This document shows positions 18,506-24,312 of a stretch of DNA of 24,713 bases, in pieces (the stretch's first letter is position 1; every line of letters begins with the position of its first letter). The notes under the pieces are model-generated. The model saw only the letters and a list, made by a program, of their open reading frames with translations. It was not told where the DNA came from and ran no database searches. This DNA is from a virus, in IMG/VR virus record IMGVR_UViG_3300034120_002552, positions 1 to 24,713 of that record; one strand, given 5' to 3'. The translations under genes were made by a program, and so were the position numbers.

Positions 18506-18506
18506 T

Positions 18507-18544
18507 CGCACGCACACGCACGCCCGCCCGCGTACGCGCACGCG
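18507..18544. other. Alternating CG/CA tract, Z-DNA-prone
   Basis: Right after the stop of the metallopeptidase-like gene, 38 bases are almost wholly C alternating with G or A. Two strict pyrimidine-purine runs (18507-18523 and 18529-18544) are separated by CCGCC. A perfect 10-bp palindrome CGCGTACGCG lies at 18529-18538. No T-run follows, so it does not look like an intrinsic terminator. Structural behaviour is inferred. Confidence 0.7.
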
Positions 18545-18546
18545 AG

Positions 18547-18558
18547 ACCTAAATACCC
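18547..18558 (+). promoter_or_regulatory. Putative T4-type late promoter
   Basis: ACCTAAATACCC lies directly after the CG/CA tract and 18 nt before the ATG of the 37-residue gene. The CTAAATACC core is the same as at 15202 and on the - strand at 20653. Confidence 0.55.
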
Positions 18559-18576
18559 TGTGAAAGGAGAACATCA

Positions 18577-18690
18577 ATGGAACACATTCTCGGAACCATC
18601 TGGTGGAGTGCCCTCATGTTCATTGCCGGTGCCGTCATTGGCGTGCCGCTCTGGAAATGGGTCTCAACCAAGTTGCCTTGGAACAACTGA
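18577..18690 (+). CDS. 37-residue membrane microprotein
   Basis: The reading frame encodes MEHILGTIWW, a hydrophobic run (SALMFIAGAVIGVPLW, about 11-26), then a short basic tail with KWVSTK. AAAGGAG at 18563-18569 is 7 nt from the ATG, and a late-promoter box precedes it, which together support real expression. One transmembrane helix is predicted by eye. No function can be assigned; small single-pass proteins are common in late regions of T4-like phages. Confidence 0.7.
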   Translation: MEHILGTIWWSALMFIAGAVIGVPLWKWVSTKLPWNN

Positions 18691-18691
18691 C

Positions 18692-18719
18692 TTGACTTCA
18701 GCCATCTTGGCGGTATACT
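18692..18719 (+). promoter_or_regulatory. Putative sigma70-type early promoter for gene 46
   Basis: TTGACT (18692-18697), a 16-nt spacer and TATACT (18714-18719) each match the host sigma70 consensus at five of six bases. Transcription would start near 18726, only about 8 nt before the gp46 ATG. The spacer contains an 11-bp hyphenated palindrome GCCA-TCT-TGGC (18701-18711), which could be an operator. Confidence 0.6.
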
Positions 18720-18733
18720 GACCTGTTTACACG

Positions 18734-20431
18734 ATGATCACCTTCAAGACCATTCGCTGGAAGAACCTCCTCAGCACGGGCAACCTGTTCACGGAGGTCC
18801 AACTCAACAAGACCAAGACCACCCTCATGCTGGGTGAGAACGGGGCAGGTAAGAGCACCTTATTGGACGCTCTTACCTTTGTCCTGTTCAACAAGCCCTA
18901 CCGGAACATCAACCTGCCGCAACTGGTCAACTCGGTGAACGAGAAGGACTGCGTGGCGGAGATTGAGTTCACGAAGGGCGACTCCATCTACAAGGTCATC
19001 CGCGGGCAGTCACCCAAGGTATTTGAGATTTGGGAAGACGGCAAGTTGATTGACCAAGATGCCAAGGCGAAGGACTACCAGAAGTTCCTTGAGGACCAGA
19101 TCCTCGGGATGAACTACAAGTCATTCTGTCAGGTGGTCATCCTCGGCTCGGCGAACTATGTCCCATTCATGAAACTATCGGCGGCAGACCGCCGGTCGGT
19201 CGTGGAAGCCATCCTTGACATCGGGGTGTTCTCGGTCATGAATGTCCACCTCAAGGAACGCTTCAGCCAGAACCGCGAGGAACTCAACCAAGCCGACTCA
19301 GCCCTTGCGGTCGCCCGCGAGCGGGTTACTCTTCTCCGCCGGATGGTGGAGGATGCCAAGAAGCGGAGCGAGCAGGATAGTGTCTGGGAGGCGGAGCAGG
19401 TCGCCCAAGCGAGAGTTCGCATCGGGGAGGCTCAGGAGGCTATCCGTTCGTCCGAAGCGATTGTGGAGGCTCTGACGGCTTCCATCATTGACCAAGAAAG
19501 CGTGGAGGGGGACATCAGCCGCTACGAGGTTCTCAGGGGTCAAATAACCAAAAGAGCCGCCGGATTGCGTAAGGAAATTGCTTTTTATGAGAAGAACGAC
19601 ACCTGCCCCACCTGCTGCCAGCAGATTGACGGGGACTTCAAGAAGCGTGCCTCCGACAAGGCAGAGGGGAAGATCAAGGAAATAGAGGAGGCCATTGAAG
19701 AAATGGCGGGTCACATTGACCGGAACACCTCCCGCATGACGGAAATCAAGAAGGTTCTCTCCGACATCCGCGATGCCACCACGAACATCCACAAAAAGCG
19801 GAACGAGATTGAGAACACCGAGGATCATATCAAGAAGATCCTCTCCAAGAAGGTTGAGGAACCGAAGGACTTCCAAAATGACTTGACGGAAGCCATGTCC
19901 GGCGAAAACGAGTGCCTTGAGAACAAGAAGGAATTGCTTGAGGAACAGCACTACCTGTACCTCGCCCAGACCATCCTGCGGGACTCGGGCATCAAGAGCC
20001 GCATCGTCAAGAACTACATCCCCGTCATCAACGAGACCATCAACCGATACCTCACCCGCATGAACTTCTTCGTGAACTTCCACCTTGACGAGGAGTTCAA
20101 CGAGACCATCAAGTCGCGACATCGGGATGTATTCACCTATGCCTCGTTCAGTGAGGGCGAGAAGAAGCGGATTGACCTGTCCCTCCTGTTCGCATGGCGT
20201 GCCATCGCATCCATGAAGAACTCCATCCGGACCAACCTGCTCATCCTTGACGAGGTTCTTGACGGGAGCCTTGATGACGGGTCAGTGGAGGCGTTCCTTG
20301 ACATCGTGTCCCACATGGGCGACGATACGAACATCGTGGTCATCAGCCACAAGCCGAAGGAACTGCTACAAGACAAGTTTGAGCGGACGATCCAGTTCGT
20401 GAAGAAGGGGAACTTCAGCAAGGCAACTTAA
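18734..20431 (+). CDS. 46: gp46-like recombination nuclease ATPase subunit (Rad50/SbcC family)
   Basis: ATPase subunit of the gp46/gp47 complex, which resects DNA ends for recombination-dependent replication and host DNA breakdown. Walker A GENGAGKST is at 34-42. A long coiled coil (about 170-460) has the zinc hook CPTC (C291, C294) at its centre. The ABC signature FSEGEKKR is at 472-479, and Walker B LLILDE ends at D506-E507, followed by the D-loop region GSLDDGS. The length of 565 is close to T4 gp46 (560). A sigma70-type promoter ends just before the ATG, and no Shine-Dalgarno is visible, so the mRNA may be almost leaderless. It is on the opposite strand to its partner gp47, unlike T4, and its TAA overlaps the stop of the convergent 73-residue gene. 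Confidence 0.95.
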   Translation: MITFKTIRWKNLLSTGNLFTEVQLNKTKTTLMLGENGAGKSTLLDALTFVLFNKPYRNINLPQLVNSVNEKDCVAEIEFTKGDSIYKVIRGQSPKVFEIWEDGKLIDQDAKAKDYQKFLEDQILGMNYKSFCQVVILGSANYVPFMKLSAADRRSVVEAILDIGVFSVMNVHLKERFSQNREELNQADSALAVARERVTLLRRMVEDAKKRSEQDSVWEAEQVAQARVRIGEAQEAIRSSEAIVEALTASIIDQESVEGDISRYEVLRGQITKRAAGLRKEIAFYEKNDTCPTCCQQIDGDFKKRASDKAEGKIKEIEEAIEEMAGHIDRNTSRMTEIKKVLSDIRDATTNIHKKRNEIENTEDHIKKILSKKVEEPKDFQNDLTEAMSGENECLENKKELLEEQHYLYLAQTILRDSGIKSRIVKNYIPVINETINRYLTRMNFFVNFHLDEEFNETIKSRHRDVFTYASFSEGEKKRIDLSLLFAWRAIASMKNSIRTNLLILDEVLDGSLDDGSVEAFLDIVSHMGDDTNIVVISHKPKELLQDKFERTIQFVKKGNFSKAT

Positions 20432-20649
20432 GTGATGCCGCCTTGGCTGTAGTTCATCGTGATCTTCGGGTTCTGGATGCTGGCAGCGGTCGGCTGTCGC
20501 TTCTTCAACTGCCGGATGGAAGGTCTCTTGGCCTTGTCTGCCTTGCCCGTACGCAGGGACATCACGGGTTCAACGAACGGGGCACCGGATGCCGATGCCG
20601 ACATCTGCCACTCTCTGATCTCCTGACGCAACAGGTCAAACTGCTTCAT
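20428..20649 (-). CDS. Small basic hypothetical protein (73 aa)
   Basis: Unrecognised. The sequence is basic and low in hydrophobics: MKQFDLLRQEIREWQ could form an amphipathic helix, followed by a KADKAKRPSIRQLKKRQ segment suited to nucleic-acid or protein binding. It lies 8 nt downstream of gp47 on the same strand, with its own CTAAATA box in that gap, so it may be expressed both from the gp47 transcript and late. No convincing Shine-Dalgarno. Its TAA overlaps the TAA of gp46 within TTAA. Confidence 0.6.
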   Translation of the reverse strand: MKQFDLLRQEIREWQMSASASGAPFVEPVMSLRTGKADKAKRPSIRQLKKRQPTAASIQNPKITMNYSQGGIT

Positions 20650-20670
20650 GCAGGTATTTAGCCCTGCATG
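20647..20670 (-). promoter_or_regulatory. Putative late promoter inside a perfect 8-bp inverted repeat
   Basis: On the - strand GCTAAATACC (20662 to 20653) lies 3 nt ahead of the ATG of the 73-residue gene, and its TAA is the stop codon of gp47. Arms CATGCAGG (20647-20654) and CCTGCATG (20663-20670) are perfect complements around an 8-nt loop. As RNA the hairpin would hide the ATG of the 73-residue gene. A start about 10 nt downstream of the box would fall inside that gene, so promoter use for it is doubtful. Confidence 0.45.
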
Positions 20671-21707
20671 GACTCGGCATAGATTTCCCTGACTAGGGTC
20701 TTCAGCCGTGTCGGGTCATCTACATTCTCCATCCGGTCAATCTCGTCGCAGATGAGGGTGAGGGTGTCCTTGCTCATGTCCACCACGGTGGGGTCCGACT
20801 GTTCCTGCTTGTCGTTCAACTCAATGATGGTCAAACCGTGGACGGGAGTGGCGTTCAGCCGGTCAATCAGGTTCTCGTAGACGAACGGCTTGGACTTCGC
20901 CTTGACCATCAGGCGGACGAAGGTCTCCTTGTAGTCCGCCGTGCTGAACATGTTGTAATCCCTTGCCGTGTCATCGTACTCCAGCATCGTGAACATGTGC
21001 TTGGGGTTCGGGACGAACTCCATGCTCCGGTCCTCGGTGTCAAAGTAGTGGAACCCCTTGGTCTGACCCAAGTCGGAGAAGGTCATCTGGTACTGGGTTC
21101 CCAAGTAGTGGATGTTGCCGCGGCTGTGCCGGAAGTGGAAGTGTCCGCTGTAGACCGCATCGTACTTCTCAAGAGTGCTGGGGGACATCCCTTCCTGATG
21201 CTGGACTCCACACACCGCCTCACACCCGTTCACCTCAAAGTGACCGAACAGGATATCCGTTTTCCTGTCGGCGATGAAGTCCATGCACTCCTGATGGTTG
21301 TTCTTGGCGATCCACGGGACGAACCCGACGAGCAACCCGTCCAGAGAGACGACGCTGGGCTTGTCATGGACTTTGATGTTTGAGTCGGTGCCGAAGAGTT
21401 CCGTGGGGGAGTTGAGGGAGATGGTGTTGCGGTAGTAGGCATCGTGGTTGCCGATGATCAGGTCCATCGTGATGCCGTCCTTCTTCAGCCGGTCCACGAA
21501 GAACTTCCGTGTGGCGTTGAGGGTGTGGAAGTTGACGAACTTCCTCCTGTCCATGAAGTCCCCCATGTGGACGATGTGGTTGACACCCCTCTCCTTGAGC
21601 GAGGGAAAGAACACCTCGTCCCAGAAGCGGATGAAATGCTCAAGGAAGATGGGGCTGTCGTTGCGTGCCCCGAAGTGCGTGTCAGAGATTACAGCAATCT
21701 TGGTCAT
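20658..21707 (-). CDS. 47: gp47-like recombination nuclease subunit (Mre11/SbcD family)
   Basis: Metal-dependent nuclease partner of gp46. Calcineurin-type phosphoesterase motifs run in order: DTHFG (9-13), GDFMDRR (49-55), GNHD (86-89), FGHFEV (154-159) and SGHFHFR (187-193), supplying the usual two-metal ligands. The length of 349 is close to T4 gp47 (339). The ATG overlaps the stop of the methyltransferase gene by four bases (ATGA), so translation is probably coupled. It belongs to the - strand operon with gp55, whereas gp46 is transcribed from the opposite strand. Confidence 0.95.
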   Translation of the reverse strand: MTKIAVISDTHFGARNDSPIFLEHFIRFWDEVFFPSLKERGVNHIVHMGDFMDRRKFVNFHTLNATRKFFVDRLKKDGITMDLIIGNHDAYYRNTISLNSPTELFGTDSNIKVHDKPSVVSLDGLLVGFVPWIAKNNHQECMDFIADRKTDILFGHFEVNGCEAVCGVQHQEGMSPSTLEKYDAVYSGHFHFRHSRGNIHYLGTQYQMTFSDLGQTKGFHYFDTEDRSMEFVPNPKHMFTMLEYDDTARDYNMFSTADYKETFVRLMVKAKSKPFVYENLIDRLNATPVHGLTIIELNDKQEQSDPTVVDMSKDTLTLICDEIDRMENVDDPTRLKTLVREIYAESMQG

Positions 21708-23082: not shown

Positions 23083-23643
23083 TCAGTCCATCAGTTCGTC
23101 TAGAGGCTTGGTCTTCTTGCGACCGCGTTTCTTGGCTTTGGGTTTGGGCTTATTCTCCGTCTTGGAGTCGGCCATGAAGTCGCCTGCCACGAACTCGTAA
23201 AATGGACTCTCCGTAGAATCTTCGTACTTCTTGTGTTCCTCGTTCATCCAGTTGCGGAACTTCCCTGTCGGGTCGTTCTGCTCAAAGGCTCGCATCTTGA
23301 TGAAGAGTTGCTTCTTCTCCTTCTGGATGCGACGAAGGAAAGCATAGTAGATGATCTGCGTGAAGAACGCAAATGGGTTCGTGGATTTCTTGGGGTCAAA
23401 GTTGGTCGCATACATGATACAATTCTCTATTGCATCCGAGACCATCTCCTCCTTGTAGGTGTAGTTGGTGAAGTTGGGCTTCTTGGCGAGGTTGTTGGCG
23501 ATGTCCATGAAGCACTGCCCGATGTAGTTTGACACCCCCGGCTTGGGCTTGGCTTCCTTCAATGCCTTCTTGACCAGTTTCTTGTGTGCCACCAACTCGG
23601 CAAGGAACTTCTTGTTGTCAATGTAGTGGTTCTGTTTGGGCAT
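23083..23643 (-). CDS. 55: gp55-like late-transcription sigma factor
   Basis: Sigma-family protein that directs host RNA polymerase to phage late promoters. The length of 186 is essentially that of T4 gp55 (185). The core, residues 61-112 (YTYKEEMVSDAIENCIMYATNFDP through NPFAFFTQIIYYAFLRRIQKEKK), is the sigma region 2-like DNA- and core-binding segment. The C-terminus is a lysine-rich linker (KPKPKAKKRGRKKTK) with an acidic-hydrophobic end LDELMD, which may be the sliding-clamp contact known for gp55 (inference). An AGGAGG Shine-Dalgarno (23650-23655 on the - strand) is the best of the region. It is driven by the sigma70-type promoter at 23847-23875 through a structured leader. Its expected targets are the CTAAATA boxes in this window. 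Confidence 0.93.
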   Translation of the reverse strand: MPKQNHYIDNKKFLAELVAHKKLVKKALKEAKPKPGVSNYIGQCFMDIANNLAKKPNFTNYTYKEEMVSDAIENCIMYATNFDPKKSTNPFAFFTQIIYYAFLRRIQKEKKQLFIKMRAFEQNDPTGKFRNWMNEEHKKYEDSTESPFYEFVAGDFMADSKTENKPKPKAKKRGRKKTKPLDELMD

Positions 23644-23659
23644 CAGCCCTCCTGTGTTA

Positions 23660-23695
23660 AGATTTGCGAAATCTGGCGAGATTTTTCTCTCCGCC
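23660..23695 (-). promoter_or_regulatory. Two adjacent hairpins ahead of the gp55 ribosome-binding site
   Basis: On the - strand, GGCGGAGA...TCTCGCC (23695-23675, one bulged base, GAAAAA loop) is followed at once by the perfect stem AGATTT-CGC-AAATCT (23674-23660). Only a few bases then separate it from AGGAGG. No T-run follows either stem, so translational control or RNA stability is more likely than termination. Confidence 0.6.
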
Positions 23696-23711
23696 GTCGT
23701 TTTGCCTACTA

Positions 23712-23842
23712 GATACCTTTGGGAACAAAGGGGTACTGAGTACTATAGGGTACTTACTAAGATACTCTTCAGTAGGTACTCTAGATACTCTCTAGTAAGT
23801 TCTCTAGAGTATACTCTAAAGAGTTACTTAAGATACCTAGTG
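23712..23842 (-). repeat. Four GTATCT repeats in the gp55 leader
   Basis: Read on the - strand, GTATCT with R-rich flanks occurs at about 23836, 23788, 23765 and 23716: AGGTATCTTAAG, GAGTATCTAGAG, GAGTATCTTAGT and AGGTATCTAGTA. Spacings are 48, 23 and 49 bases. A 14-bp palindrome TAGAGTATACTCTA lies at 23805-23818. GTAC and CTAG each occur six times between 23709 and 23863. A further hairpin CCTTTG-TTCC-CAAAGG lies at 23716-23731. Confidence 0.75.
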
Positions 23843-23846
23843 TTAC

Positions 23847-23875
23847 ATTGTAGTACCTAGTACGCGGCTTGTCAA
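23847..23875 (-). promoter_or_regulatory. Strong sigma70-type promoter for gene 55
   Basis: On the - strand TTGACA (23875-23870), a 17-nt spacer, then TACAAT (23852-23847): six of six and five of six matches at ideal spacing. The stop codon TGA of the upstream gene (23874-23872) lies inside the -35 box. The start site would be near 23840, giving a leader of about 195 nt. Confidence 0.8.
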
Positions 23876-24312
23876 GGGCCAAGTCGCGGATCTCCTCCCC
23901 ATCCCGGAAATTCTGGGTTGTCCTCCTCATCCTCATCACCCTCCTCGTCTTCCTTGTAGTCCTCCTCAAGGACATCGGGTGCATCTTCAAGTTCGCCTTC
24001 CATGTCGGAGTTGATCTTGGCCATCTGGTAGTCACCCACCAGTTCCTTGATCGGAGTTGTGATGCAGACCACGGACTGCTTGGGAACCATGATGTAGTCA
24101 TCCATAGTGAAGTCAATCCAATCTTTGAGGACAAGGGTGAAACCTTCTTGCACGCCTTCCTTGCCGTTGGGGTGCCTCTTTCGCACCGGAATGGATACCA
24201 CCGACATCGGACGCTCAAGGATGTAGTTGGACTCGCCGCTTTCCGCGATACCGGAGATGACCTGCTCCCCCGTCACCATCTTGAGCAACTTGATGGGATA
24301 GTACTGGATCAA
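23872..24312 (-). CDS. Small protein with acidic tail, possibly Sm-like fold (146 aa)
   Basis: Residues 1-95 (IKLLKMVTGEQVISGIAES..., NYILERPMSVVSIPV, EGFTLVLKDWIDFT, DYIMVPKQSVVCITTP, IKELVGDYQM) look like a compact five-stranded barrel. They resemble a family of small T4-like cyanophage proteins that I believe to be Sm-like; this is from memory and should be treated as weak. Residues 100-135 are extremely acidic (EGELEDAP, EEDYKEDEEGDEDEEDN). Its ATG overlaps the uvsW stop (ATGA), so it is translated with uvsW. It ends inside the gp55 promoter. Possible roles in RNA handling or polymerase contact are speculative. Confidence 0.75.
   Translation of the reverse strand: MIQYYPIKLLKMVTGEQVISGIAESGESNYILERPMSVVSIPVRKRHPNGKEGVQEGFTLVLKDWIDFTMDDYIMVPKQSVVCITTPIKELVGDYQMAKINSDMEGELEDAPDVLEEDYKEDEEGDEDEEDNPEFPGWGGDPRLGP

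Follow-up and report, generated by a model that had tools for sequence, protein, structure and literature searches.

Late transcription is switched on by gp55. In the 24,713-nt stretch of viral DNA analyzed here (the window), a gap of 228 bp separates gp55 from the 146-aa gene on its uvsW side (hyp; Table 1). A sequence-only reading of this DNA had proposed that gp55 is expressed from a host-type promoter through a structured leader, and that folding of the leader RNA times or limits gp55 synthesis. Does the gap function as an RNA leader, or is its conspicuous symmetry a property of the DNA?

Table 1. Features in and around the gap upstream of gp55 (window coordinates)
Feature	Position	Strand	Remarks
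gp55, T4-like late sigma factor, 186 aa	23083..23643	-	PHROG 234 (phrog_234), E 1.4e-55
Shine-Dalgarno AGGAGG of gp55	23648..23653	-	read from the sequence
Two short hairpins (GGCGGAGAgaaaaaTCTCGCC, AGATTTcgcAAATCT) before the ribosome binding site	23660..23695	-	not significant
Dyad CCTTTG-TTCC-CAAAGG, then TATCTAG	23709..23731	-	dyad itself 23716-23731
Short palindromic repeats (AGTAC, TCTAGA, CTTAAG, CTATAG)	23736..23864	.	degenerate counterpart of the clade's AGTACT array
-10 hexamer TACAAT	23847..23852	-	spacer 17; predicted transcript start ~23840
-35 hexamer TTGACA, gp55 promoter	23870..23875	-	read from the sequence; conserved in L001-L007
146-aa conserved hypothetical (hyp), directly behind uvsW	23872..24312	-	"methylamine utilization" in annotated cyanophages

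Genome context of the gap

The gap lies at a boundary between gene modules. Synechococcus phage DSL-LC02 has a complete genome, and in it the uvsW-hyp-gp55 gap is the exact junction of a late module (terminase, sheath, tube, portal, capsid, gp3, uvsY, uvsW, hyp) and a replication module (gp55, gp47, gp46, clamp loader, clamp), all on one strand. The homologues of gp46 (SMC/AAA; 18734-20431, +) and gp47 (metallophosphoesterase; 20658-21707, -) are together on one strand in DSL-LC02 and convergent in the window. The window also has an N4/N6 DNA methylase gene (PF01555; 21704-23077, -) between gp55 and gp47, overlapping gp47 by 4 bp; none was present at this place in the annotated cyanophages examined. 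A psbA search as a pointer to the host gave no match in the contigs of six relatives, and thus no support for a cyanobacterial host.

The sequence-only reading held that every other gap in the window is under 150 bp. This is correct if small open reading frames are counted as genes. Otherwise it fails for 18506-18733 (228 bp, containing a 37-aa ORF) and 20432-20657 (226 bp, containing a 73-aa ORF). The 37-aa ORF (18577-18690, +) is hydrophobic, had no PHROG match, and lies downstream of a late-type promoter, CTAAATACCC, and AGGAG. A CG-dinucleotide-rich tract, CGCACGCACACGCACGCCCGCCCGCGTACGCGCACGCG, occupies 18506-18548, immediately after a stop codon.

A host-type promoter upstream of gp55

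We found that the window contains only one sigma70-type site with a match of at least 11/12. This site, TTGACA-N17-TACAAT at 23875-23847 on the minus strand, matches at 11/12 positions, and dinucleotide-preserving shuffles give a chance expectation of 0.10 such sites per window. Its hexamers are thus above chance, with a spacer (17 nt) in the 16-18 nt range of sigma70 promoters. The stop codon of hyp (TGA, 23874-23872) is inside the -35 hexamer. Promoter, strand and overlap were as the sequence-only reading had described them, and the predicted leader of ~197 nt agrees with its estimate of ~195 nt. The relative L007 (87% identity in gp55) keeps TTGACA-N16-TATACT in the same region, although the rest of its gap is very different from that of the window (195 vs 228 bp). 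Judged from the sequence, this is very probably a host-type promoter for gp55. It resembles the host-type (sigma70) early promoters of T4-like cyanophages in its TTGACA, 17-nt spacer, TANNAT and position before a regulatory or replication gene.

A promoter swap in the window's lineage

We compared 195 distinct uvsW-hyp-gp55 gaps, most of them in metagenomic fragments, obtained from IMG/VR scans and annotated phages. Long gaps (190-242 bp) made up 28/195 and constitute the window's clade; these 28 include close relatives, so counts among them are not independent. Most other gaps were 60-155 bp. In a tree of gp55, a single branch with support 82 separated the long gaps from the others (1 change); among the long gaps, the window was sister to L007 (98).

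One layout is common to the long gaps. The stop codon is followed by an AGTACT/CTTAAG cluster, then the dyad with TAT[CGA]TAG, then a spacer and, in 25/28, a gp55 promoter of the type TTTACA-N16/17-TATAGT. This promoter is 8-33 nt before gp55, downstream of both cluster and dyad, and the cluster is ~80-170 bp upstream of it. Relatives with short gaps also carry a promoter close to gp55. The gp55 promoters of the relatives belong to the same host-type class as that of the window. The window promoter stands apart from those of the rest of its clade, being ~200 bp distant from gp55 and overlapping the stop codon of hyp.

A promoter at this place was found only in the window lineage (L001 and L002 types) and its sister L007, none of which has a downstream candidate. 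In contrast, 25/25 of the other long gaps have a promoter downstream and lack a strong one upstream. This distribution suggests that the cluster became a leader secondarily: it appears to be an old feature of the clade, located upstream of the gp55 promoter, that turned into a leader where the promoter moved. Because L001-L006 are near copies, the swap rests on two lineages. The gp55 tree alone leaves the direction of the move unfixed, but a promoter near gp55 is common to 25/28 long gaps and the short-gap relatives. In L007 no AGTAC or GTACT remains and the dyad is lost. This repeat decay would fit a relaxed constraint after the promoter moved.

In the 270 bp upstream of gp55, L345 and L347 have related gaps with dense CTAG/GTAC palindromes and TATTTAG (antisense CTAAATA). 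They have no clear sigma70 promoter adjoining gp55.

The palindrome cluster and the small dyad

In a DNA search, the cluster region of the window aligned with its own complement over 66 nt. No other AGTAC/TTAAGTA site came near the density of the cluster in the gp55 gap, either in the window or in the contigs of three relatives (120, 147 and 168 kb): it had 6-9 motif hits, vs 1-3 at the next-best site. Genome-wide, the pattern AGTACTNNNAGTACT was not clearly commoner than its reversed control; it is special only in its clustering at gp55. L011 and L016/L173 of the same clade have no AGTAC/GTACT repeats, though their gaps are palindromic.

Two known binding sites were considered for the repeats and rejected. 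The cyanobacterial LexA box (AGTACWNWTGTACT, PMC3091678) needs GTAC at a distance of 8, and successive GTAC repeats in the clade's arrays are mostly 9 nt apart, start to start (14, vs 4 at distance 8). For the NtcA site (GTA-N8-TAC, PMC3037559), the spacing peak was at N7 (23), vs 5 at N8; one GTA-N8-TAC is present in the window.

The TAT[CGA]TAG element occurred at the same place in 28/28 long gaps. The small dyad next to it folded with a mean of -5.45 kcal/mol, vs -1.17 for shuffled sequences. Its stems vary by compensated C-G/T-A swaps at the outer pairs, with zero G-T pairs. Such swaps without G-T pairs are as expected of a dyad that acts as DNA, although they are not proof of one. Whether T is avoided at the N of TATNTAG on the sense strand was also considered; this notion was dropped, as L345 and L347 read TATTTAG.

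A proposed regulatory island at the late/early junction

With moderate confidence, we favor a swap of the early promoter over an island at the junction of late and early genes that would act at the DNA level, as a regulatory element or insulator. Host RNA polymerase (sigma70) would transcribe gp55 early from the promoter in the window, which would be a lineage-specific replacement of the relatives' promoter close to gp55. Since the new promoter lies upstream of both, the cluster and the dyad would now be transcribed as the leader. In the relatives, the cluster is located where the late module (gp17 to gp23, uvsY, uvsW, hyp) meets the replication module (gp55, gp47, gp46, clamp genes). There it may act at the DNA level, through putative protein-binding dyads or as an insulator separating the two transcription units, and tune gp55. 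In the window, any effect on gp55 mRNA would likely be a by-product, and the cluster would have little or no role as leader RNA. Against this explanation count the fold of the whole window leader (z -4), the lack of a clear downstream promoter in L345 and L347, the absence of AGTAC/GTACT repeats from L011 and L016/L173, and the small number of lineages (two) behind the swap.

Alternatively, the cluster might belong to the 3' end of the upstream late operon, with a hairpin at the hyp stop codon that terminates transcription or shields the late mRNA from exonucleases, parting the late and early units. The location at the junction agrees with this, as does the start of the array right at the stop codon (TAG followed by GTACTT) in most of the clade. 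Some relatives also have a dyad and a T-run just before the gp55 promoter (e.g., AAAATCTCGAAGATTTTTTT in L109). However, there was no intrinsic terminator (GC-rich stem, then T-run) in 23644-23871 of the window, and neither the long hairpin nor the small dyad is followed by a T-run. There was also no common fold of the array in 12 close relatives (RNAalifold, -2.5 kcal/mol). Finally, an efficient terminator in the window's array would cut off gp55 because the promoter precedes the array. We consider this alternative doubtful.

Folding of the leader

We found that the window leader is predicted to fold, but not where the sequence-only reading had placed the structure. The RNA fold of 23635-23841 had -64.5 kcal/mol (z -4.0), so the claim of a structured leader held for the leader as a whole. 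The source of the signal was the AGTAC/CTAG palindrome cluster. The two hairpins said to be stacked directly before AGGAGG were not significant (z -0.7 to -1.1 for the last 65 nt), and the corresponding stretch of L007 had z +0.9. The window had no match above the gathering score to any Rfam family, and a riboswitch or other known RNA was rejected on this ground.

If the sense RNA had been selected to fold, it would outfold its complement. Over the 28 arrays, pairing was equal on the two strands (mean z -2.4 sense, -2.1 antisense), with no bias toward the sense strand and therefore no RNA-specific signal. Two-sided compensatory changes were found in 0/42 pairs among the window, L002 and L007. 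Two smaller groups did have a shared array fold, with three two-sided changes each; there too, the array is outside the gp55 leader. Since the cluster is upstream of the gp55 promoter in 25/28 long gaps, it is not part of the gp55 leader in these phages. The hairpins of the leader were for the most part not conserved. The small dyad was, in most of the clade, but there it is outside the gp55 transcript.

Folding of the leader is thus unlikely to time or limit the translation of gp55 or the stability of its mRNA, whether directly or through an RNA-binding phage protein. Besides the fold of the whole leader, this possibility has in its favor a predicted GGGC-UGAU-GCCC hairpin that places the start codon in its loop. 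It also has a precedent in another T4-like phage: psbA of cyanophage S-PM2d has a long, hairpin-rich 5'-UTR behind a sigma70 promoter, for which a regulatory role was suggested (PMC5931967). Unlike that leader, the palindromes studied here are in nearly all relatives not part of the gp55 transcript, and they lack RNA-specific conservation. The absence of covariation in the window lineage and of a consensus fold of the array, and the unstructured part next to the ribosome binding site, also argue against RNA control. The proposal that RNA folding controls gp55 was therefore not sustained, and the covariation and conservation by which it was to be judged were largely absent. The folded-looking stretch is a palindromic DNA repeat cluster, and because nearly all relatives have it ahead of their gp55 promoter, it is by origin probably not a leader for RNA control.

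Antisense promoters in relatives with short gaps

Relatives with short gaps, mostly marine, have a sigma70 promoter directed toward hyp and uvsW in addition to the gp55 promoter. An antisense TTGACA-N16-18-TANNAT with a score of at least 10 was present in 129/145 short gaps, vs ~5% of shuffles. Among 130 antisense elements, TTGACA was exact in 121 and the spacer was 17 nt in 98. The antisense and sense -35 hexamers overlap by the palindrome CTTGTCAAG (offset -1) in 67/130. We rejected the notion that the antisense promoter is a mere by-product of this symmetry, because its -35 matches better than the sense -35, which in the 130 elements was TTGACA in only 29 (TTGTCA in 68). Back-to-back arrangements with the gp55 promoter are found in L085 (1402-1488), L087 (1376-1482), L093 (1231-1317) and >100 other short gaps, with a conserved stretch, TTCAACCCTNACANAGGTATTNTAC, around the antisense -10. 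Where these relatives have the antisense sigma70 promoter, several sister lineages from freshwater carry ATAAATA or CTAAATA, motifs of the late type. Cyanophages are without MotA, and their late promoters are NATAAATA (PMC2984593).

The shared palindromic -35 of the short-gap relatives resembles bidirectional bacterial promoters (PMC10268837, PMC12825309). The window is unlike those promoters: it has no such pair, and its promoter sequence points in a single direction.

The uvsW gene of T4 has a late promoter, and the UvsW protein unwinds R-loops at origins (PMC3016281). On this ground, an early antisense start directed at uvsW would be plausible. It is conceivable, though rather unlikely, that T4-like aquatic phages use the uvsW-hyp-gp55 gap as a dedicated switch between late and early genes, by which uvsW and other late genes stay silent early, during gp55 synthesis. 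The role of switch would fall to an antisense promoter of sigma70 type in marine phages and of late type in some freshwater ones, or, where the window's clade is concerned, to the once-per-genome AGTACT cluster with a putative regulator bound to it.

Very unlikely, in our view, is that the dyad and TATNTAG descend from the marine antisense promoter, as a remnant or changed form transcribing into hyp and uvsW. The prevalence of antisense promoters in short gaps and the late-type motifs at the same place in sister clades would favor such a descent, as would the resemblance of the window's antisense TAGATACCTTTGG to the marine TAGAATACCTTTGTTAGGG. However, the long-gap clade has no antisense -35 at the right distance. 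We also rejected TATCTAG/TATNTAG as an antisense late promoter, since CTAGATA, the reading of the homologous place on that strand in the window's clade, was upstream of genes in the relatives' contigs at just 1/27 sites, vs 80/132 for CTAAATA.

The cluster might also be a replication origin. It is AT-rich (G+C 31%), occurs once per contig and is next to uvsW, the gene whose T4 product acts on origin R-loops; a phage initiator could bind it, or transcription could open it. We consider this highly improbable, as the short-gap relatives have no cluster and GC skew in the contigs had no clear turning point at the locus (a weak test, since skew follows gene strand).

Implications for gp55 control

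These results bear on the control of gp55 timing in T4-like environmental phages without MotA. They make a natural promoter swap available for comparison, mark a clade-specific repeat cluster that occurs once per genome, and point out a widely conserved antisense promoter at the boundary between late and early genes.
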